A DNA stretch of 61,457 bases, taken from positions 1 to 61,457 of the forward strand of contig JAUNSK010000024.1 of NCBI GenBank assembly GCA_030539275.1, read 5' to 3'. The DNA is from Oscillospiraceae bacterium (GTDB taxonomy: Bacteria > Bacillota > Clostridia > Oscillospirales > Ruminococcaceae). The translations under genes and the position numbers were made by a program. Within the stretch, counting starts at the first letter, position 1; each line of letters opens with the position of its first letter. Under the pieces are notes generated by a model, which saw only the letters and a program-made list of their open reading frames with translations, was not told the origin of the DNA and did no database searches. This document shows positions 45,171 through 59,618 of the stretch, piece after piece.

Positions 45171-46457
45171 TTATGAATTGTCAGCCATTAGGGCGCGTTT
45201 TCCGATATCCCTGCGGTAATGACACTTGTCAAAGCTGATCTTTTCTACTGCACTGTAAGCTGTGTCAAGAGCAGCTTTAAGATTTTCGCCTGTTGCTGTC
45301 ACATTAAGAACTCTGCCGCCTGCAGTATAGAAGCAGCCATCATCATACCTGGTACCGGCATGATATACAAACACATTTTCTGCCTGTCCCATGGCATCAA
45401 GTCCGTCTATCTTAAGACCTGTTTCATATTTTTTAGGATATCCTCCGCTTGCTATAACAACACATGCAGCAGCTTCGTTTTTCCACCTGATATCTATATC
45501 ACTTAAGTTTTCATTATATATAGCCATCATTATATCGATAATATCTGTCTCAAGCAGAGGAAGTACTACCTGCGTTTCAGGATCACCGAATCTGCAGTTG
45601 TACTCAATGACCTTTGGTCCGTCAGATGTAAGCATAAGTCCGAAATAGAGACATCCCTTAAACCTTCTGTTTTCAGAGTTCATAGCGTTGATAGTCGGAA
45701 GGAATATTTTTTCCATGCATTCATCTGCTATCTTGTCTGTATAATAAGGATTCGGTGCTATTGTACCCATTCCGCCTGTGTTGAGACCGAGATCTCCGTC
45801 GAGAGCTCTCTTGTGATCCATAGATGAGACCATCGGTTTGACAGCTATACCGTCTGTAAAGCAGAGTACCGATACTTCAGGACCTGTAAGAAATTCTTCA
45901 ACAACGACCTGAGAACCGCTTTCACCGAATACTTTATCTTCCATGATTGACTTGACAGCATCCTGTGCTTCTTCAAGATTCTGAGCTATAACTACACCTT
46001 TGCCCAGAGCCAGACCGTCAGCTTTGATTACAACAGGATATTTATCTGTATCTGTAATATACTTCAGAACATCTGCAGGATCATTGAAAACTTCATATCC
46101 GGCAGTCGGGATATTGTATTTTTTCATAAGATCCTTGGAAAACACTTTGCTTCCCTCAATTATAGCTGCAGCCTTGTCAGGACCAAATGTAACAAAACCA
46201 GCTTCGTTCAAGGCATCAACCATTCCGAGAACGAGGGGATCATCAGGTGCCACGACGACAAGATCCGGTCTGAGCTTTTTTGCTAGTGAAACGACTCCAT
46301 CAATATCAGTAGCTTTTACGCCAAAACCTGTTTGCGCATACTGTGATATTCCCCCGTTTCCGGGTGTACAGAATATCTTGTCAACCTTTTTGCTCTGTGA
46401 AATTTTCATTACAAGAGCGTGTTCACGGCCGCCGCCGCCAATTACCAGAACATTCAT
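45171..46457 (-). CDS. purD: Phosphoribosylamine-glycine ligase
   Basis: PurD (GARS) joins glycine to phosphoribosylamine with ATP, step two of purine synthesis. The 428-residue protein begins MNVLVIGGGGREHALVMKI and has the ATP-grasp pattern (PVVIKADGLALGKGVVIA, VVEEFLTGPEVSVLCF) and LYFGLMLTSDGPKVIEYN followed by RFGDPETQVVLP. It is the monofunctional form. It is the last clear purine gene of the operon; a stable intercistronic hairpin separates it from purH. Confidence 0.96.
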   Translation of the reverse strand: MNVLVIGGGGREHALVMKISQSKKVDKIFCTPGNGGISQYAQTGFGVKATDIDGVVSLAKKLRPDLVVVAPDDPLVLGMVDALNEAGFVTFGPDKAAAIIEGSKVFSKDLMKKYNIPTAGYEVFNDPADVLKYITDTDKYPVVIKADGLALGKGVVIAQNLEEAQDAVKSIMEDKVFGESGSQVVVEEFLTGPEVSVLCFTDGIAVKPMVSSMDHKRALDGDLGLNTGGMGTIAPNPYYTDKIADECMEKIFLPTINAMNSENRRFKGCLYFGLMLTSDGPKVIEYNCRFGDPETQVVLPLLETDIIDIMMAIYNENLSDIDIRWKNEAAACVVIASGGYPKKYETGLKIDGLDAMGQAENVFVYHAGTRYDDGCFYTAGGRVLNVTATGENLKAALDTAYSAVEKISFDKCHYRRDIGKRALMADNS

Positions 46458-46495
46458 TTTGATACCCTCCGAAAAAAAAGTGTAAATATGCTAAT

Positions 46496-46542
46496 ATCGC
46501 AAATGTACTTAAAGATCATTATCTTACTACTACATTTGCGAT
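46496..46542 (-). promoter_or_regulatory. Intercistronic hairpin between purH and purD
   Basis: Perfect 12-base arms ATCGCAAATGTA and TACATTTGCGAT enclose a 23-base loop in the 114-base gap. No U tract follows on the transcribed strand. Possible roles are RNA stability or partial attenuation inside the operon. Confidence 0.45.
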
Positions 46543-46571
46543 ACAACAAAAACAAATATTAATTTATTATA

Positions 46572-47753
46572 TTAATGGTGGAAAAGTCTGATGCCCGTAA
46601 ATGCCATTGCAATGTTGTATTTGTTGCATGTTTCAATAACATTGTCATCTCTGATTGATCCGCCTGGCTGTGCAATATATGCAACACCGCTCTTCTTTGC
46701 TCTTTCGATATTATCACCGAACGGGAAAAATGCATCTGAACCAAGACATACGTCCTTATTCTGTGCAAGCCAATCTTTTTGCTGCTGCTTAGTAAATACC
46801 TCTGGCTTAACCTTGAAAATATTCTGCCACGTACCTTCTGCAAGTACATCCATATACTCATCCGAAATGTACACATCTATGGCATTGTCTCTGTCAGCAC
46901 GTCTGATTCCGTCAACAAACTGAAGTGAAAGTACCTGGGGTGCCTGTCTGAGCCACCAGATATCTGCTTTGTTTCCGGCTAGTCTTGTGCAGTGGATACG
47001 TGACTGCTGTCCGGCACCTATACCGATTGCCTGACCGTTCTTGACGTAACATACAGAGTTTGACTGAGTGTATTTTAGTGTTATGAGTGAAATAACAAGA
47101 TCTCTCTTCTTATCCTCAGGAATAACTGTATTGTTTGTGACGACTTTTGCAAGCATATCATTGTCGATCTTAAGATTGTTTCTGCCCTGTTCAAATACAA
47201 TGCCGAATACCTGTTTGCGTTCGATTTCTGCAGGAACGTATGAAGGATCGATCTTAATGATATTATAAGTTCCCTTTCTCTTTGACTTGAGTATTTCAAG
47301 AGCTTCAGGAGTATAGTCAGGAGCTATAATACCGTCTGATACTTCACGCTGTATCATCTTTGCAGTTACTTCATCACAAGTATCGGAAAGTGCTATAAAA
47401 TCACCGTATGATGACATTCTGTCAGCACCTCTTGCTCTTGCATATGCACATGCCATAGGTGACAGTTCACCAAGATCATCAACAAAATATATTTTTTTCA
47501 GAGTATCTGAAAGCGGCTCGCCCACGGCAGCACCAGCCGGTGAAACATGCTTGAATGAAGTTGCAGCACACATACCTGTTGAAGCTTTAAGTTCCTTTAC
47601 AAGCTGCCATCCGTTAAATGCATCAAGAAGATTTATATATCCCGGCTTGCCGTTAAGAATATCTATCGGCAGTTCGGAACCATCTTCAGTAAAAATTCTT
47701 GAAGGCTTCTGATTAGGATTGCATCCATACTTTAGCGCCAGTTCATTTGACAT
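46572..47753 (-). CDS. purH: Stand-alone AICAR transformylase (PurH C-terminal type)
   Basis: This 393-residue protein corresponds to the AICAR formyltransferase half of PurH. It lacks the MGS-like IMP cyclohydrolase domain that normally forms the first 200 residues. It formylates AICAR with 10-formyl-THF. Visible motifs: LKYGCNPNQKPSRIF, TSFKHVSPAGAAVG (with the catalytic Lys-His), KYTQSNSVCYVKNGQAIGIG, HCTRLAGNKADIWWLR and SDAFFPFGDNIERA. The missing cyclisation step is supplied by the PurO-like gene directly upstream. Confidence 0.93.
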   Translation of the reverse strand: MSNELALKYGCNPNQKPSRIFTEDGSELPIDILNGKPGYINLLDAFNGWQLVKELKASTGMCAATSFKHVSPAGAAVGEPLSDTLKKIYFVDDLGELSPMACAYARARGADRMSSYGDFIALSDTCDEVTAKMIQREVSDGIIAPDYTPEALEILKSKRKGTYNIIKIDPSYVPAEIERKQVFGIVFEQGRNNLKIDNDMLAKVVTNNTVIPEDKKRDLVISLITLKYTQSNSVCYVKNGQAIGIGAGQQSRIHCTRLAGNKADIWWLRQAPQVLSLQFVDGIRRADRDNAIDVYISDEYMDVLAEGTWQNIFKVKPEVFTKQQQKDWLAQNKDVCLGSDAFFPFGDNIERAKKSGVAYIAQPGGSIRDDNVIETCNKYNIAMAFTGIRLFHH

Positions 47754-47771
47754 AAAATTCGTCCTTTCCGG

Positions 47772-48488
47772 TTATTTGTTTTTGTTTTCAATAAGAGTTT
47801 CTGCTTTTCCGGTTTCAGTGTTTATATATCTTACGAACAGTGAAACTTTATTATCCTGGTTAAGACTGTTCCATAATGTATTTTTAAATTCGTTTATATC
47901 ATCAGGAATTGAGATGAGCTTTGGTTCTCCCTCAAAGCTGGGAAGCGGATTGCCGTCTCCCATATAGGTATGAATAAAATGACCTTCGCCCTTGACAGGG
48001 TTCTTATATGAGAAAGTATATCTCTGGCATGAATCAGCATTGCCGTTGGCACTTTTAAGTATACTAAGCGCATAATTAAAAGTTTTGTCCTCTTCTACTT
48101 TAATAATTCCGCTGATTCTTGGTGTGTAGTTAGGTGCATCAGGCTCAAATTCCCTGAGTCTGAGTGCCTGTTCAAAGGTCTGCTGATTATTCATCTGCTC
48201 ATATATTGTGTCTGTCTGGTCACCGTTTGTAACTATAGTTTTATTTCCGAGAACACGTACCGGAGCATAGATGATAAGACTTGGATCAGTAAGCTTTGAC
48301 GGATCAAAAGCCTCAGTTCTTATTCCATCGCCGTCAGTAACAAATACTCTGTTGCGGCTGTTTTCACTTCTGCCCATGATAAAGTATGCAGTAACAGCAT
48401 TTTTACCGTCAGCAGATCTGCCTATAATAATACCTCTTCCAGGGTATGAATTTTCTTTTAATTCTTTTTCAATTGAAAGCATTTTCAT
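47772..48488 (-). CDS. purO: IMP cyclohydrolase, PurO (archaeal) type
   Basis: This 238-residue protein matches the IMP_cyclohyd (PurO) family first described in methanogens: NSYPGRGIIIGRSADGKN, AYFIMGRSENSRNR, ALRLREFEPDAPNYTPRISG and FIHTYMGDGNPLPSFEGEP. It closes FAICAR to IMP, the last step of the pathway. It is cytoplasmic and unrelated to the MGS-like domain used by PurH. It sits 18 bases ahead of the stand-alone AICAR transformylase, so the pair replaces bifunctional PurH. Confidence 0.88.
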   Translation of the reverse strand: MKMLSIEKELKENSYPGRGIIIGRSADGKNAVTAYFIMGRSENSRNRVFVTDGDGIRTEAFDPSKLTDPSLIIYAPVRVLGNKTIVTNGDQTDTIYEQMNNQQTFEQALRLREFEPDAPNYTPRISGIIKVEEDKTFNYALSILKSANGNADSCQRYTFSYKNPVKGEGHFIHTYMGDGNPLPSFEGEPKLISIPDDINEFKNTLWNSLNQDNKVSLFVRYINTETGKAETLIENKNK

Positions 48489-48502
48489 ATGTTCAAACCA
48501 CC

Positions 48503-49129
48503 TTAATCTATTATATGTGCAACATTATCTGTAACCTGGATCCTGTCCTCACAAAGCAGAGATACAGCCATGGGGAGTATCTTCCACTCTGCCTGTTCCA
48601 TTACTCTTTTCTGAAGGATTTCAGGTGTATCATCATTTCTGACCTCAACTGCCTTCTGCAGGATGATCGGACCTCCGTCACATTCTGACGTTACAAAATG
48701 AACAGTAGCACCTGTGACCTTTACACCGCGTCTGAGAACTTCTTCATGAACATGAAGACCATAATATCCTTTTCCGCAGAACGAAGGAATAAGCGCAGGA
48801 TGAACGTTCACCATTTTATTTTCATATGCACTGCAGACACTGTCATCAAGTATAGTCATAAATCCTGCATAAACAACTATATCAGCTTTTTCTTCATTCA
48901 GTGCATCAAGAACGGCCCTGCTGTAATCTGCAACACTTTTGTAAAGCTTTCTTTCAAGAACAAGAGTTTTAATATCGTTTTTTCTAGCTCTCTCAAGTGC
49001 ATATGCATCAGGCTTTGAAGAAATAACGCATGTTATCTTTCCACCGGTTATTTCACCGTTTTTCTGTGAATCAATAAGTGCCTGAAGATTAGTACCGCCT
49101 CCGGAAACAAGTACAACTATATTTTTCAT
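48503..49129 (-). CDS. purN: Phosphoribosylglycinamide formyltransferase
   Basis: PurN transfers a formyl group from 10-formyl-THF to GAR. The 208-residue protein has VLVSGGGTNLQALID at the start, the Asn-His-Asp catalytic set within MVNVHPALIPSFCG (loop and active-site residues), and TGATVHFVTSECDGGPII near 140. Normal family length. It is 15 bases after purM and 14 before purO. Confidence 0.96.
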   Translation of the reverse strand: MKNIVVLVSGGGTNLQALIDSQKNGEITGGKITCVISSKPDAYALERARKNDIKTLVLERKLYKSVADYSRAVLDALNEEKADIVVYAGFMTILDDSVCSAYENKMVNVHPALIPSFCGKGYYGLHVHEEVLRRGVKVTGATVHFVTSECDGGPIILQKAVEVRNDDTPEILQKRVMEQAEWKILPMAVSLLCEDRIQVTDNVAHIID

Positions 49130-49144
49130 TATATCCTCCGAAAA

Positions 49145-50179
49145 CTACTTGATGATAACGCCTTCATCACCTGATACCAGTTCACCGAGAATATATGCAG
49201 TCTCGCCTGCTGCATTAAGAACTGATACAGCCTTGTCAGCATCGTTTTTATCAACTACAACTGCCATACCAACACCCATATTGAATGTGTTGAACATGTC
49301 TCTCTCAGGAATTTTTCCTGTTCTTGCAACAAGGTCAAAAATAGGTAGAACCTGAACACTTGCTCTTTCTATACTTGCAGATATACCGGCCGGAAGTGAA
49401 CGAGGAATGTTTTCATAGAAACCGCCTCCGGTAATATGAGAAATAGACTTGACCTTTACGCTGTCAAGAAGACTGAGAATTGATTTAACATATATTTTTG
49501 TCGGAGTAAGAAGAGTTTCTCCGAGAGTTGCTCCAAGATCATCAAAATGACGTGAAAGATTTTCATTATTGACTGTAAATACTTTTCGTATAAGTGAAAA
49601 GCCGTTTGAATGCACACCACTTGACTTAAGTGCTATCATTACATCGCCAGGCTTCTGTTCTTCAGTTTTAATGATCTTGTCCTTGTCAACAACACCAACT
49701 GAAAAACCTGCAAGATCGTATTCATCAACAGGATAAAATCCAGGCATTTCAGCTGTTTCACCGCCGACAAGTGCGCATCCTGACTGTACACATCCCTCTG
49801 CAACACCTGAAACGATCTGTGCAACTTTTTCCGGATAGTTCTTTCCCACTGCTATATAGTCAAGGAAAAACTGAGGCTTTGCACCGCAGCAAATGATGTC
49901 ATTTACACACATTGCAACACAGTCTATACCAACAGTATCATGCTTGTCCATTAAAAAAGCGATCTTAAGCTTTGTTCCGACACCGTCTGTTCCTGATACA
50001 AGTACAGGCTTGTTTATACCTGTCATATCAAGTTCATACAAACCGCCGAATCCGCCTAAACCGGAAATAACACTGCTTGTCATAGTTCTTGCAACATGCG
50101 ATTTCATAAGTTCAACTGCCTTGTAACCAGCTGTTACGTCAACGCCTGCCTCTTTATAGCTCTCTGAAAAACTCTTCAT
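49145..50179 (-). CDS. purM: Phosphoribosylformylglycinamidine cyclo-ligase
   Basis: PurM (AIR synthetase) closes FGAM to AIR with ATP. The 344-residue protein begins [20 protein letters not shown] and shows [55 protein letters not shown] and [16 protein letters not shown], all family signatures. Cytoplasmic homodimer, standard length. Between purF and purN in the operon. Confidence 0.97.
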
Positions 50180-50212
50180 TAATTAAATCCTCCGTTGTTT
50201 ATTTAAAGCCTC

Positions 50213-51640
50213 TCAGCTTTCTTCGCCGATTTTAAATTCAAATTTATCCTTTGGCATTTCAGACGGTACCGGTATAGGATATTTACCGTCGAAGCATGCT
50301 GTACAGAAACCACATGACGGGTTCTGAGCAATCTTCTTTACGTTTTCTACACTCAGATATCCAAGACTGTCTGCACCGATATGCTTTGCTATTTCAGGTA
50401 CTGACATATTGCAGGCTATAAGATTTTCCCTGCTGTCTATATCTGTACCAAAGTAACATGGATTAGTAAAAGGCGGGCTGGATATACGCATGTGCACTTC
50501 TTTTGCACCTGCTTCGCGGATAAGATCAACTATATGCCTGCACGTTGTTCCTCTTACGATACTGTCATCTATAAGAATTACTCTTTTTCCTCTGACAACT
50601 TCTTTTACAACATTAAGTTTTATACGAACAGAGTTTGTTCTCTGTGACTGTGACGGCTGTATGAACGTTCTGCCTACATATCTGTTTTTGATAAAGCCTA
50701 CTCCATAAGGAATTCCCGATGCATTTGCAAGTCCGAGTGCAGCGTCAAGACCACTGTCCGGTACGCCGATAACAACATCAGCATCAACAGGATGTTCTTT
50801 CCACAAAAGTTCTCCGGCACGCATTCTTGCGTTATGAACTCCTGCCCCCTCAATTACTGAGTCAGGACGGGCAAAATATACGTATTCAAACACACAGAAT
50901 GTACTTGGACCGCCGCAGTGAGTCTGAATGGAGCGAACGCCGTTTTCATCAACTACAACCATTTCACCCGGAAGAATGTCTCTTTCGAATACAGCCCCGA
51001 TACTGTCCAGTGCACAGGATTCAGAAGCTACTACTACAGCGCCTTCCTTTGTCCTTCCCATACACAGAGGCCTGAAACCGTTAGGGTCTCTTAATGCGAT
51101 CAGTTTTTTAGGAGACATTATTACAAGTGAATATGCACCCTTAAGCTTTTCGACTGCCTTTTCAACTGCATCCTCTATGGAAGGCTGAATAAGTCTCTGT
51201 TCTGTTATCGCATAAGAAATTACTTCTGTATCATTAGTGCTGTGAAAAATAGCACCTTTTAATTCATATTCTTCTCTGAGTTCACGTGTATTGACCAGAT
51301 TTCCGTTATGTGCTATTGATAAAGGTCCCTTTACATGTCTTACGACCAGCGGCTGTGCATTTGATCTGTTGGAATTACCTGTTGTCGAGTATCTGACATG
51401 TCCGATAGCAATATTACCATTGCCAAGCTTTGCAAGCCTTTCTTTGTCAAAAACCTCATGAACAAGTCCAAGATCTTTATAATATGAAAACACACCTTTG
51501 TCATTGACAACTATCCCGCAGCTTTCCTGTCCTCTGTGCTGCAGTGCATAAAGTGCAACATATGCATCAGCTGCGACATTTGTGGTCTTATTGCTGTAAA
51601 TGCCGAAAACTCCGCATTCTTCATTTATAGTATTGAACAT
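50213..51640 (-). CDS. purF: Amidophosphoribosyltransferase
   Basis: PurF makes phosphoribosylamine from PRPP and glutamine, the committed step. The 475-residue protein begins MFNTINEECGVFGIYSNK: a short propeptide of eight residues before the catalytic Cys9, as in the Bacillus-type enzyme. The glutaminase region has VRYSTTGNSN and AHNGNLVNT. The PRPP loop is VILIDDSIVRGTT. The C-terminal CGFCTAC, with another Cys in IACNMS, indicates the [4Fe-4S] form sensitive to oxygen, fitting an anaerobe. Confidence 0.97.
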   Translation of the reverse strand: MFNTINEECGVFGIYSNKTTNVAADAYVALYALQHRGQESCGIVVNDKGVFSYYKDLGLVHEVFDKERLAKLGNGNIAIGHVRYSTTGNSNRSNAQPLVVRHVKGPLSIAHNGNLVNTRELREEYELKGAIFHSTNDTEVISYAITEQRLIQPSIEDAVEKAVEKLKGAYSLVIMSPKKLIALRDPNGFRPLCMGRTKEGAVVVASESCALDSIGAVFERDILPGEMVVVDENGVRSIQTHCGGPSTFCVFEYVYFARPDSVIEGAGVHNARMRAGELLWKEHPVDADVVIGVPDSGLDAALGLANASGIPYGVGFIKNRYVGRTFIQPSQSQRTNSVRIKLNVVKEVVRGKRVILIDDSIVRGTTCRHIVDLIREAGAKEVHMRISSPPFTNPCYFGTDIDSRENLIACNMSVPEIAKHIGADSLGYLSVENVKKIAQNPSCGFCTACFDGKYPIPVPSEMPKDKFEFKIGEES

Positions 51641-51682
51641 TTTACAACCTCAATTCTCATCAAAGTAAGTTTGCATTTTACA

Positions 51683-51705
51683 GCTTTCCGGATTTTCCGG
51701 AAAGC
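51683..51705 (-). promoter_or_regulatory. Intercistronic hairpin between purC and purF
   Basis: Perfect 10-base arms GCTTTCCGGA and TCCGGAAAGC with a 3-base loop lie in the 80-base gap. There is no U tract after it, so an RNA-processing or stability role is more likely than termination. Confidence 0.5.
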
Positions 51706-51720
51706 ATATTAACAAGTTGA

Positions 51721-52440
51721 TTACTCGCCGAGAAGTCTCTTCATGATTTCTTTATATGCGTCTTCTTCTCCGCCAAGATTTCTTCTGAAACGATCCTTGT
51801 CCAGTTTCTCTTTTGTTACGCTGTCCCAGAATCTGCATGTATCAGGTGAGATCTCGTCAGCGAGAACGATCTTGCCGTCAGTTGTTCTTCCGAATTCAAG
51901 CTTGAAGTCAATAAGTTCAATGTTGAGGTCTATAAGGTATTCAGAAAGGATGGTATTGATCTTGAGTGAATACTCAGCGATGAGATCAAGTTCTTCCTTT
52001 GTGCACCACTGCATAGCCATGATATGATATTCATTTACCATAGGATCGCCGAGTGCGTCGTCCTTATAGCAGTATTCAAGAACAGTCTTTGAAAGCTTTG
52101 TTCCTTCTTCAAGGCCGAGTCTCTTTGCAAGTGAACCTGCTGCAATATTACGTACGATTACTTCAAGAGGAACGATCTTTACTCTCTTTACAATTGTTTC
52201 TCTGTCTGAGATTTCTTCAACGAGATGTGTAGGAATGCCCTTGCTTTCAAGCATCTTCATGAGATGATTAGTTACTCTGTTGTTGATGATTCCCTTGTTG
52301 TGGATAGTACCCTTTTTCTCGCCGTTAAAAGCTGTAGCATCATCTTTATAATCAACTATTACGTATTCGCTGTTATTTGTAGCGTATACTTTCTTAGCTT
52401 TACCTTCATATAACTGCTCTGTTTTCTGCAAATTTTCCAT
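51721..52440 (-). CDS. purC: SAICAR synthetase
   Basis: PurC joins aspartate to CAIR with ATP. The 239-residue protein shows [11 protein letters not shown] at the start, [33 protein letters not shown]-type core with the [11 protein letters not shown] loop, and [14 protein letters not shown] near the end. Standard length for the bacterial monofunctional enzyme. Second gene of the operon. Confidence 0.97.
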
Positions 52441-52517: not shown

Positions 52518-53024
52518 TCAGACAATAAGCTCATCTATTGATTTCTGAAGTTTCGCGTCCTTATCAAGGACTTTTTTACACATCTGTGCTTTCATTTCTG
52601 TAAGCTGAGCTGCGATTTTTTCGTCGGAAAGAGCCAGCATCTGCAATGCAAGAAGAGCTGCATTGGCAGCACCGTTTATAGCTACTGTCGCAACCGGAAT
52701 TCCCTTCGGCATCTGGACTGTTGCAAGAAGAGCATCCATGCCGTCAAGTCTTGATGATTCCATAGGAATACCTATTACAGGAATAATTGTATGTGCTGCA
52801 AGAACACCTGCAAGATGAGCTGCCATTCCTGCTGCTGCTATAATAACACTGAAACCATTTTTAACTGCATTTTTTGAAAATTCAGCAGCCTGATCAGGAG
52901 TACGGTGAGCAGACATTACGTGTATTTCATACTCAACTCCGAATTTCTTGAGTTCTTTTGCTGCGTCAATGACTACAGGCAGATCACTGTCGCTGCCCAT
53001 AATAATCGCTACTTTTTTAGACAT
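52518..53024 (-). CDS. purE: N5-carboxyaminoimidazole ribonucleotide mutase
   Basis: PurE rearranges N5-CAIR to CAIR. The 168-residue protein has the class I signature: [67 protein letters not shown]-type loop (split here as IGIPMESS and [19 protein letters not shown]). No purK is present in this window. First gene of the purine operon; GGAGG precedes the ATG, and a terminator with a leader ORF lies immediately upstream. Confidence 0.97.
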
Positions 53025-53056: not shown

Positions 53057-53084
53057 AATAAAAAACTGCGACATAGTCACAGTT
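53057..53084 (-). terminator. Leader terminator (attenuator) ahead of purE
   Basis: Arms AACTGTGAC and GTCGCAGTT pair over 9 bp (one G-U) with a 3-base loop, followed by TTTTTTATTTTT on the transcribed strand. It lies inside the leader of the pur operon, after the promoter and before the purE ribosome binding site, so it can only serve to attenuate the operon. Confidence 0.8.
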
Positions 53085-53208
53085 GTATTAATATAATATT
53101 TCTATATTTTAACATTTCTGAGTGATGAGAGGCACATGAGATTGCAGTGTCCCCGCTGAAATAACAATATGTATTTTTATTGTCTGAACACGCGTGATTG
53201 TATCTCAT
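53077..53208 (-). CDS. Leader ORF of the purine operon (43 codons)
   Basis: A short frame starts at an ATG at 53208 (MRYNHACSDNK...) with GAGGTG five bases upstream, and ends at a TGA (53079-53077) inside the 5' arm of the leader terminator. The 43-residue product is hydrophilic, with four Cys, four His and many Ser, and has no signal peptide; I recognise no family. A ribosome reaching the stop would cover the terminator arm and favour read-through. The same RNA can also fold: 53208-53202 pairs with 53142-53136, 53191-53186 with 53152-53147, and 53182-53178 with 53169-53165, with the start codon inside the outer helix. So it may be a true leader peptide, a structured ligand-binding RNA, or both. 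It is not a purine, ZTP, PRPP or THF riboswitch by the consensus I know. Confidence 0.5.
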   Translation of the reverse strand: MRYNHACSDNKNTYCYFSGDTAISCASHHSEMLKYRNIILIQL

Positions 53209-53246
53209 ACCTACACCTCATTCCCATTTCAACATTATCTTATAAT

Positions 53247-53275
53247 ATTATACAGTATTTATTTTTTTTTTTCAA
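53247..53275 (-). promoter_or_regulatory. Promoter of the purine operon
   Basis: TTGAAA (53275-53270), a 17-base A-rich spacer and TATAAT (53252-53247) lie on the minus strand. Transcription should begin near 53240, giving a leader of about 215 bases to purE. I see no Bacillus-type PurBox next to it. Confidence 0.7.
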
Positions 53276-55069: not shown

Positions 55070-56827
55070 ATGAAATCTACAAAACGTATTATTGCTATGG
55101 CAGCTTCAGTTGCAATGCTGTCTGCAGTATGTGCAGGTACCTCTTGTGACTTTGGCGTCGGGGATGTACAGTCTGTTGCAGCTGCAGATGACTGTCATGA
55201 CGACTGGCTGCACGCAGAGGGCAACCAGCTGTATGATATGGACGGAAACGCAGTCTGGCTTACCGGATGCAATTGGTTTGGTTTCAATGTAGGAAGTCAG
55301 GTCTTTGACGGTGTGTGGTCGATCAATATGCATGATGCAATCAAAGGCATAGCAGATCACGGTTTTAATTTTCTTCGTGTTCCTGTATCTACGCAGATAC
55401 TTCTTCAGTGGATGAACGATGAACCCGATCCGGCAGAGCCGAAAGTAAATATCTACTCAAATCCTGAACTCACCGGCTTCAACAGCAAGCAGCTGTTCAA
55501 TCAGGCTGTTGAATGGTGCAAGGAATCAGGCATAAAGATCATGATCGATATTCACAGTGCCGAAACACATGCTGCCGGTCATAACTTTGCACTCTGGTAC
55601 AATGACAAGTATTCTACAGAAGATCTTTATACTGCTCTCGAATGGTTCGCTGATTATTACAAGGATGACGACACTGTTCTTGCTATCGACGTTAAAAATG
55701 AACCTCACGGAACGGCAAATACACCGAATGACATGGCTATATGGAACGATGACTATTCTGATCCGAGAAACTGGAAGGCAGTTGCCGAAACAGCTGCTTC
55801 ACGTATTCTTGCAAAGAACCCTAATCTTCTTATCATGATAGAAGGAATTGAGGTTTATCCTAAGGAAGACAGCACGTGGGAATCACTGCATGTTGATTAT
55901 ACAACTATGTACTACTATTACTACGGTACATGGTGGGGCGGAAATTTCAGAGGTGCAAAGGATTATCCTATAGATCTTGGAAAATATCAGAGTCAGCTTG
56001 TATATTCACCTCATGATTACGGTCCACTCGTTTATGATCAGACATGGTTCCATGATGGTGAATTTACCTTTGATTCTCTTATGGACGAATGCTGGCGTGA
56101 TAACTGGTTCTTTATTTACGAAAATAATATGGCACCGCTGCTTATCGGTGAATGGGGCGGATTTATGGATGACGGCCCGAACCAGCACTGGATGGAATGT
56201 ATACGTGACCTTATAAAACAAAATCATCTGAATCATACATTCTGGTGCTATAATGAAAATTCAGGTGATACAGGCGGACTGGTTTATGATAACTTCGGTA
56301 AATGGGATCTTGACAAATATGCTCTTGTAAAACCATCCTTATGGCAGACTGATGACGGAGTTTTCGTAAGTCTTGATCATCAGAAAGGGCTCGGAGAAAA
56401 CGGTATCTCTGTTTCTAAGTATTACGCAGACGGAAATAACCTGATCGGCTCCTCTGGTGCGACAACCACTCCAGCAACAACGACTACAACCCCTGTAACA
56501 ACAACTACTACTACCCCGGTAACTACAACTCCTGCACCAGTTACAACCACAACTGCCAAAGTAACTACAACTGCACCGGTTTCTCAGACAACTTCTGCAA
56601 CTGTTATCTCTCCTGCTAAATTATACGGAGATCTTGATGGAAACGGAGTTGTTGAAATGACGGATCTTACTCTTCTGTCACAGTACCTGATCCATGACAT
56701 AACCCTTACAGAAGATCAGCTGCTTTATGCTGATGTAACTGGTGACTCAGATGTTGATATATCTGATATGTCTCATCTGAAACAGTATATTATGCTTGAA
56801 AAAATAATTCTTGGACCACAGAAATAA
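55070..56827 (+). CDS. Secreted GH5 endoglucanase with dockerin
   Basis: This 585-residue enzyme has a signal peptide (about 1-39, ending VAAAD), a glycoside hydrolase family 5 catalytic domain (about 45-450), a Thr/Pro-rich linker (about 463-510) and a C-terminal type I dockerin (about 522-582: GDLDGNGVVEMTDLTLLSQY and ADVTGDSDVDISDMSHL). The acid/base is Glu211 in DVKNEPHG and the nucleophile is Glu361 in LLIGEWGG; LRVPVS and the HSAE stretch are also typical. It should hydrolyse beta-1,4-glucan (cellulose or related beta-glucans) while docked on a cell-surface or cellulosomal cohesin. No separate carbohydrate-binding module is visible. Confidence 0.92.
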   Translation: MKSTKRIIAMAASVAMLSAVCAGTSCDFGVGDVQSVAAADDCHDDWLHAEGNQLYDMDGNAVWLTGCNWFGFNVGSQVFDGVWSINMHDAIKGIADHGFNFLRVPVSTQILLQWMNDEPDPAEPKVNIYSNPELTGFNSKQLFNQAVEWCKESGIKIMIDIHSAETHAAGHNFALWYNDKYSTEDLYTALEWFADYYKDDDTVLAIDVKNEPHGTANTPNDMAIWNDDYSDPRNWKAVAETAASRILAKNPNLLIMIEGIEVYPKEDSTWESLHVDYTTMYYYYYGTWWGGNFRGAKDYPIDLGKYQSQLVYSPHDYGPLVYDQTWFHDGEFTFDSLMDECWRDNWFFIYENNMAPLLIGEWGGFMDDGPNQHWMECIRDLIKQNHLNHTFWCYNENSGDTGGLVYDNFGKWDLDKYALVKPSLWQTDDGVFVSLDHQKGLGENGISVSKYYADGNNLIGSSGATTTPATTTTTPVTTTTTTPVTTTPAPVTTTTAKVTTTAPVSQTTSATVISPAKLYGDLDGNGVVEMTDLTLLSQYLIHDITLTEDQLLYADVTGDSDVDISDMSHLKQYIMLEKIILGPQK

Positions 56828-59506: not shown

Positions 59507-59602
59507 ATACATAGACAGGGGAGTCGTAATGACTGAGAGGAAGCTTAAGCTTCGACCCTAGAACCTGATTCGGATAATACCGACGTAGGGAGTTTGATGT
59601 AT
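59507..59602 (+). promoter_or_regulatory. TPP riboswitch (THI element)
   Basis: All conserved TPP aptamer segments are present in order: ACAGGGGAGTC, the CTGAGAGG box, GACCCTAGAACCTGAT, the TAATACCG box and CGTAGGGA, closed by P1 arms ATACAT (59507-59512) and ATGTAT (59597-59602). The variable stem GAAGCTTAAGCTTC is perfect. It precedes a terminator and thiC, so thiamine pyrophosphate should switch off thiC by transcription termination. Confidence 0.95.
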
Positions 59603-59618
59603 AATTGCTTATGTAATA

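Follow-up and report, generated by a model that had tools for sequence, protein, structure and literature searches.

Organization of the purE leader

How can the transcription of purine biosynthesis genes be set by a leader in which a small reading frame ends inside a transcription terminator? This question is raised by a locus on the minus strand of a stretch of 61,457 nucleotides (contig JAUNSK010000024.1 of an Oscillospiraceae bacterium), the whole of which is referred to below as the window. The sigma-70-type promoter of this locus (TTGAAA-17-TATAAT, 53247..53275) shows 11 of 12 consensus matches, and the promoter sequence TGTATAATA is identical across eight aligned leaders of the genus; scanning the region for promoter-like sites gave four of them where 3.4 are expected by chance. 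It is followed by the Shine-Dalgarno (SD) sequence GAGGTG (53214..53219) and by the small reading frame (uORF) of 43 codons (53077..53208), which has counterparts in relatives. The uORF starts at ATG 53208 and stops with TGA at 53079-53077, within the 5' arm of an intrinsic terminator made up of the stem-loop AACTGTGAC-TAT-GTCGCAGTT (53064..53084) and a T-rich tail (53063-53054). A pause-like site inside the uORF, GGGGACACTGCA (53143..53154), has the letters G-11 G-10 ... T-3 G-2 Y-1 A+1 and would place the 3' end of the RNA at C53144, with A53143 as the next base. The SD is predicted to be sequestered in a hairpin, of which the 5' arm (53202..53219) comprises the SD and the start codon, and the 3' arm (53127..53142) begins directly after the +1 base of the pause-like site. 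The initial annotation had already listed a promoter, an SD, a frame of 43 codons and a stop in the 5' arm of a terminator before purE, and it had placed all of these correctly.

The first gene after the leader is purE (52518..53024, ATG at 53024, Pfam PF00731), and more pur genes lie on the same strand (45171..52440), encoding PurC, PurF, PurM, PurN, a PurO-type IMP cyclohydrolase, an AICAR transformylase and PurD. Together they are taken as one operon and are presumably co-transcribed. The functions of PurH are divided over two proteins (46572-48488, minus strand), namely the PurO-type cyclohydrolase (PF07826) and a protein of the AICARFT/IMPCHase family (PF01808), of which the profile match starts at position 76. 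Elsewhere in the window, the plus strand carries a TPP riboswitch (RF00059, 73 bits, 59507-59608) and a gene for a GH5 cellulase with a type I dockerin (55070-56827), as is usual in cellulosome-forming Ruminococcus.

Distribution among relatives

From 179 upstream regions of purE, 172 were kept, taken from genomes of the family and from contigs of which some bear the names of other orders or phyla; the copies L062 and L063 and regions that were short or redundant were dropped. A terminator is present within 170 nt of purE in 126 of the 172 regions, and in 100 of these 126 an SD-preceded uORF ends near it, against 27.3 expected. Five of the 126 rows (L088, L118, L091, L098 and L077) were subsequently left out because their terminator is apparently that of a gene located upstream, which in L088 and L118 looks like the one for ribosomal protein L17. 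Removal of five more near-copies gave a strict set of 167 non-redundant regions (window included), 117 of which were counted as terminator-bearing. When the uORF is required to be preceded by an SD, to have at least 20 codons and to stop between -20 and +15 nt from the stem, 71 of these 117 leaders still have one, as compared to 2.8 on dinucleotide shuffles. The uORFs of the 91 non-redundant uORF leaders have length quartiles of 28 and 42 codons; the counts retain at least two doubtful uORFs (L121 and L134), both of which occur with ZTP riboswitches.

Among 23 regions from other families of the same order, 11 of the 15 terminator-bearing leaders have a uORF-like frame under a loose rule applied without shuffles, five of these 11 carry the motif described below, and three more leaders have no recognised start. 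At the level of the class (25 regions examined) such a frame is found in three of 13 terminator-bearing leaders, one of which belongs to the same order, and four more leaders lack a usable start.

The arrangement does not show in guaB leaders, as judged by terminator, uORF and motif, nor in those of purA and ATC/OTC genes, as judged by terminator and motif. Of 30 guaB leaders examined, nine have a terminator and three of these nine a uORF-like frame, and the A-form of the motif (GG-N6-TGYA) occurs at 0.80 per kb, which is near background. Near-background numbers of GG-N6-TGYR sites were also found in 29 upstream regions of purA (up to 330 nt; three with a terminator, 12 sites) and in 25 upstream regions of ATC/OTC genes (up to 330 nt; none with a terminator, eight sites).

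A different device is found before purE in part of the relatives. The ZTP riboswitch (RF01750) was detected in 14 of 20 loci that had been chosen mostly for a purE terminator without a convincing uORF, such as L300, L301, L308, L298, L133, L139 and others. Both devices occupy the same place before purE, near a transcription terminator, whereas the uORF leader contains a small reading frame and is not matched by a covariance model. When 38 uORF leaders of relatives, being 18 of one set of 20 loci and all 20 of a second, were searched against Rfam, no match was obtained. Since the ZTP riboswitch occurs in uORF-poor loci and the uORF leaders give no Rfam match, it seems that one group has exchanged the ZTP riboswitch for the uORF leader, or the reverse.

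Position of the stop codon relative to the terminator

In 95 uORF leaders the distance from the stop codon to the terminator stem has a median of 6 nt (quartiles 1-11), against a median of 19 nt for 93 ends of long genes in the same family (KS p 1e-14); part of this contrast is built in, since stops farther than 45 nt from the stem are not returned by the uORF finder and the limit for gene ends is 80 nt. According to the sections of PMC4824070 that deal with E. coli, ribosomes suppress nearly all activity of a terminator located a few bp past a stop codon, full strength being attained at distances over about 27 nt, and amino-acid attenuators have more than 20 bp between leader stop and terminator. 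With the short spacing found here, the geometry is thus one in which translation would prevent termination. A ribosome at the stop codon may block terminator folding, with which the spacing is compatible, and antitermination would be the result.

The sequence of the terminator stem is conserved across genera as well, CTGYR/CTACG being present in 72 of 91 leaders against 19.7 on shuffled stems (e.g. L035, L041 and L101). An extra pause at the conserved CTGYR is not indicated, as G at -10 is not enriched there in 60 leaders. This conservation goes beyond what a terminator needs and is unexplained by the model proposed below.

A pause-like motif in the uORF

When 99 uORF regions were searched for motifs in an unsupervised way, AcGGgATaaGTGCA was obtained, with a log-likelihood gain of 229 as compared to 49 on shuffled letters, for which half as many restarts were used. 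The spacing between GG and TGY peaks at six, and a single G peaks at -10/-11. The base that follows GG-N6-TGY in 91 leaders is mostly a purine: A in 60 cases (6.3 expected) and G in 22 (7.0). C at this position is about twice as frequent as expected (10 versus 5.0) and T is below chance (4 versus 8.0). Expressed per kb, the motif occurs in the leaders at 5.82 with A at +1, 2.0 with G, 0.91 with C and 0.36 with T, whereas the four classes lie between 0.70 and 1.07 in a control of 158,406 nt from purE and downstream, where GG-N6-TGYA itself reaches 0.70. The motif is bound to the sense strand (86 sites versus 13.5 expected; antisense 10 versus 6.2) and to the uORF, its frequency upstream of the uORF being near chance (8 sites versus 7.2). 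Upstream regions that have no terminator contain 12 sites against 5.8 expected, and those that have a terminator and no uORF contain 5 against 3.1.

The motif is not universal. Of 95 leaders, 54 contain its strict form, GG-N6-TGYR, where 12.2 are expected; a relaxed form is found in 84 against a chance expectation of 53.0, and the other 11 lack even that. Some leaders have several copies, at variable spacing. Each of the three frames contains sites (50, 25 and 25 of 100), and their distance from the terminator stem ranges from 2 to 153 nt; in 52 leaders the first strict site follows the ATG at a median of 59 nt. Sites of the NusG-type pause motif TTNTTT are at chance level in these leaders (43 versus 45.2 on shuffles).

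The E. coli elemental pause element, as given in the relevant passages of PMC4457086 and of a review (PMC12288461), reads G-10...TGC-1G+1, with the G at -9, -10 or -11. The leaders share with it the G at -10/-11 (also -9), the T-3 G-2 Y-1 and the fixed spacing, but their +1 base is more often A than G (60 and 22 sites), and is A at the site in the window, whereas the E. coli element described there has G. Because of this A instead of G at +1, GG-N6-TGYA is best regarded as a putative pause site for RNA polymerase.

Translation of the uORF and its peptide

Within the genus, 11 genomes gave nine purE leaders, of which seven are distinct (G001 is nearly identical to G005, and G003 to G006); one genome was left out because its contig starts within purE (G008) and another because it has no purE match (G010). 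All nine leaders have kept GAGGTGT, the ATG and the terminator, and a DNA similarity search in the genus recovered mainly the terminator and its tail. In six of the seven distinct leaders the frame is open to the terminator, and the distances from ATG to terminator leave the same remainder on division by three (83, 86, 86, 86, 92 and 125 nt). Counted from the first base of ACTGTG, the stop in these six is at -5, -2 or +4 nt. The remaining leader, G009 (L002/L061), has a distance of 84 nt and is the sole one with an out-of-register uORF, stopping 21 nt before the terminator, which is either a real variant or an assembly error. The G-11 form of the motif is found in only three of the seven (G000, G004 and G002).

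The encoded peptide appears to be under little constraint. For six pairs among four genus leaders, compared over the first 22 codons, pN is 0.22-0.40 and pS 0.28-0.49, so that the codon-like conservation which the initial annotation had proposed as support for a leader peptide is weak. This weak conservation makes it seem that translation of the uORF itself, rather than its peptide, is what counts. On visual comparison, without alignment, no relation is apparent between the peptides of different genera, and runs of three identical residues occur in seven of 91 peptides and are of six kinds. The purine content of the uORFs is slightly below that of purE (0.49 versus 0.53), and glycine and serine are moderately enriched in the uORF frame as compared to the other two frames (0.084/0.052 and 0.111/0.072). 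A tail resembling VNF/YRDIV is shared in the genus and was considered as an arrest peptide. This reading was set aside because the tail lies at different distances from the stop and because pN is not much lower than pS; conserved residues at a fixed distance from the stop were not found.

Folding of the leader RNA

The leader of the window folds modestly better than shuffled sequences (z -1.66), 10 of 200 shuffles folding equally well. Of the three nested helices in the initial annotation, the outer one (53208-53202/53142-53136) has a predicted counterpart in all seven distinct genus leaders, in each of which single folds pair the region of the SD and start codon with a stretch further along the uORF. 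Some changes between SD and ATG are compensated in the partner strand: G-C to A-U in G004 and G006, and U-A to G-C in G006. The search for paired changes thus favours the SD/start-codon hairpin, within the genus. Relatives lend no support to the inner parts, since the eight other rows of the alignment have gaps in the 42 columns that contain the innermost helix and one arm, the 5' arm, of the middle helix. A consensus fold of the MAFFT alignment of the genus returned the terminator only; the hairpin was therefore taken from single folds, as sequence alignment fails to bring its 3' arms together.

Over all leaders, the SD is paired with later RNA to a larger extent than on shuffles (0.66 versus 0.53, p 4e-6, n=93 of 95). 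Taken leader by leader the effect is weak for several, and in the window it is reached by 99 of 200 codon shuffles and, in the across-leader test, by 0.60 of the shuffles. At the first putative pause site the SD is less paired than in the full leader (0.63 versus 0.73, p 0.0006, n=52), and it is not freer there than at random positions (0.63 versus 0.60 paired, p 0.21, n=52 of 95). As a general rule, an SD that is open at the first putative pause and closed off later thus failed, although the geometry of the window itself fits it.

A model for regulation of the purine operon, and its alternatives

Taken together, the leader is probably a transcription attenuator of the purine operon, in which ribosome and RNA polymerase run a race of the pyrBI kind that is set for purines. 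The uORF, the terminator, the tight spacing between them, the motif with its A/G preference and the hairpin at the level of the genus are computed parts of this model; pausing at the motif, ribosome-driven antitermination and a purine NTP as the signal are inferred from the sequence and from work on other bacteria. The polymerase would expose the SD of the uORF and then meet at least one pause signal within the uORF, the next base being usually a purine and mostly A. The first pause, with its median distance of 59 nt past the ATG, is assumed to leave room enough for loading of a ribosome. When ATP and GTP are scarce, the polymerase would wait, as escape requires the next nucleotide, usually ATP, and the delay would allow a ribosome to load on the uORF and to close the gap. 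A ribosome that has arrived at the stop, located next to the terminator's 5' arm or overlapping with it, would keep the terminator from folding, and purE and the downstream genes would be transcribed. With plentiful purine nucleotides the pauses would be cleared, the later RNA would fold the SD away, and in the absence of a close ribosome the terminator would end transcription.

The more specific version of the model, to which we give somewhat less than even credence, is that RNA polymerase itself is the purine sensor: pause escape that depends on ATP (or GTP) would create a delay that is read by the uORF-bound ribosome. The terminator would then decide, and the device would be a widespread purine attenuator that needs no ligand, used by one family and possibly by some of its neighbours, at the place where other relatives carry the ZTP riboswitch. 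Coupling of this kind cannot be taken for granted, since the parts of PMC13323073 on B. subtilis describe a polymerase that outruns the ribosomes.

The same anatomy could gauge translation capacity instead, through the rate of initiation or elongation, with (p)ppGpp or formyl-Met-tRNA as possible mediators; the pauses would then do no more than synchronise polymerase and ribosome, and active ribosomes would switch purine synthesis on. This reading accounts equally well for layout, spacing and SD pairing, and the sections consulted of PMC9226507 describe a combined action of a uORF, pausing and (p)ppGpp in B. subtilis vmlR. What it leaves unexplained is the preference for A and G after the motif, as well as the occurrence of the device before purE when guaB and purA do not show it, and we consider it rather unlikely. 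Still less probable is that GG-N6-TGYA is a site for a protein, either an RNA-binding regulator or an antiterminator bound to the polymerase, which decides on termination while translation of the uORF is secondary. Such a protein would suit a strand-specific motif with variable spacing and sometimes several copies, and a terminator stem that is conserved in sequence too. The letters and spacing of the motif, however, coincide except at +1 with the pause element in the published description (PMC4457086, relevant passages), and neither the uORF nor its stop position is explained by a protein site alone.

Control by a nascent peptide that stalls the ribosome or by amino-acid control codons is very unlikely. 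It could draw on the sequence VNF[YC]R-I near the C-terminus, which is common to four of the seven distinct genus leaders (G002 has VNFCK), and on the higher frequency of glycine, a purine precursor, and serine in the uORF frame. It is contradicted by the apparently unrelated peptides of different genera, by a pN that is not far below pS, by the scarcity and diversity of residue runs, and by a stop-to-stem distance that is short compared with that of the amino-acid attenuators covered in PMC4824070. The possibility to which we attach least credence is an unrecognised riboswitch with an aptamer that contains the uORF. The nested pairing in the window and the compensating changes in the genus hairpin speak for it. 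A covariance-model search of the window leader against Rfam, however, gave no match, ZTP RF01750 included, which agrees with the initial annotation that the leader does not resemble purine, ZTP, PRPP or THF riboswitches; even at E values up to 10 only three miRNA or sRNA matches appeared, far under their gathering scores and at chance level. The uORF leaders of relatives also lack Rfam matches, the consensus structure of the genus is the terminator alone, and the variable distance from motif to terminator means that there is no fixed aptamer geometry.

The initial annotation had left open whether the leader is a leader-peptide attenuator or a riboswitch, and had argued that translation to the stop would block the terminator, so that either ribosome progress or a ligand could set pur expression. 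The half of this that invokes an attenuator and ribosome progress is supported, with an SD-preceded frame that runs to the terminator far above chance and is open in most of the genus, and with a spacing that fits blocking by ribosomes. The ligand half is not supported, as there is no Rfam match and different genera share a short pause-like motif at variable distance.

If the preferred reading of a race set for purines is true, a large group of Ruminococcus-like bacteria controls purine synthesis at the purE step without a riboswitch, by the timing of polymerase and ribosome. Elemental pause sites would then become metabolite gauges, in a purine mirror image of pyrBI, and the system would bear on transcription-translation coupling in relatives of bacteria that are thought to run uncoupled.

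Comparison with known attenuators

The pyrBI operon of E. coli, and also pyrE, is regulated by coupled transcription and translation, with U-rich pauses that are sensitive to UTP and a leader reading frame that runs past the terminator. The purE leader resembles pyrBI in that a leader frame reaches an intrinsic terminator in front of a nucleotide-synthesis operon. Candidate pause sites in the leader, and translation near the terminator that would prevent its folding, would be further likenesses, as far as the sections of PMC4824070 on such leaders go. The differences are that a purine operon is concerned here, that the frame mostly ends at the 5' side of the terminator whereas that of pyrBI runs past it, that the motifs are consensus-like with A or G at +1 where pyrBI has U-rich pauses, and that an SD-sequestering hairpin is present in this genus. 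The UTP-sensing pauses of the pyrBI type are absent from the shared motif, in which T at +1 is below chance. Attenuators of the trp and his type differ as well: of their control-codon runs the uORF peptides have few, glycine and serine being moderately enriched, and the median of 6 nt between stop and terminator contrasts with the more than 20 bp of that type.

In B. subtilis vmlR and tlrB, a uORF, pausing of RNA polymerase and transcription attenuation are likewise combined in one leader, as described in the relevant parts of PMC9226507 and PMC12288461. These leaders respond, in the same descriptions, to an antibiotic-stalled ribosome and use NusG-dependent pauses at TTNTTT, which is at chance in the purE leaders, and vmlR is depicted there with an antiterminator and an anti-antiterminator structure. 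No description of a purE leader of the present kind appeared among the matches listed in a weak search of the open-licence PMC literature, in which purE is indistinguishable from the word "pure".
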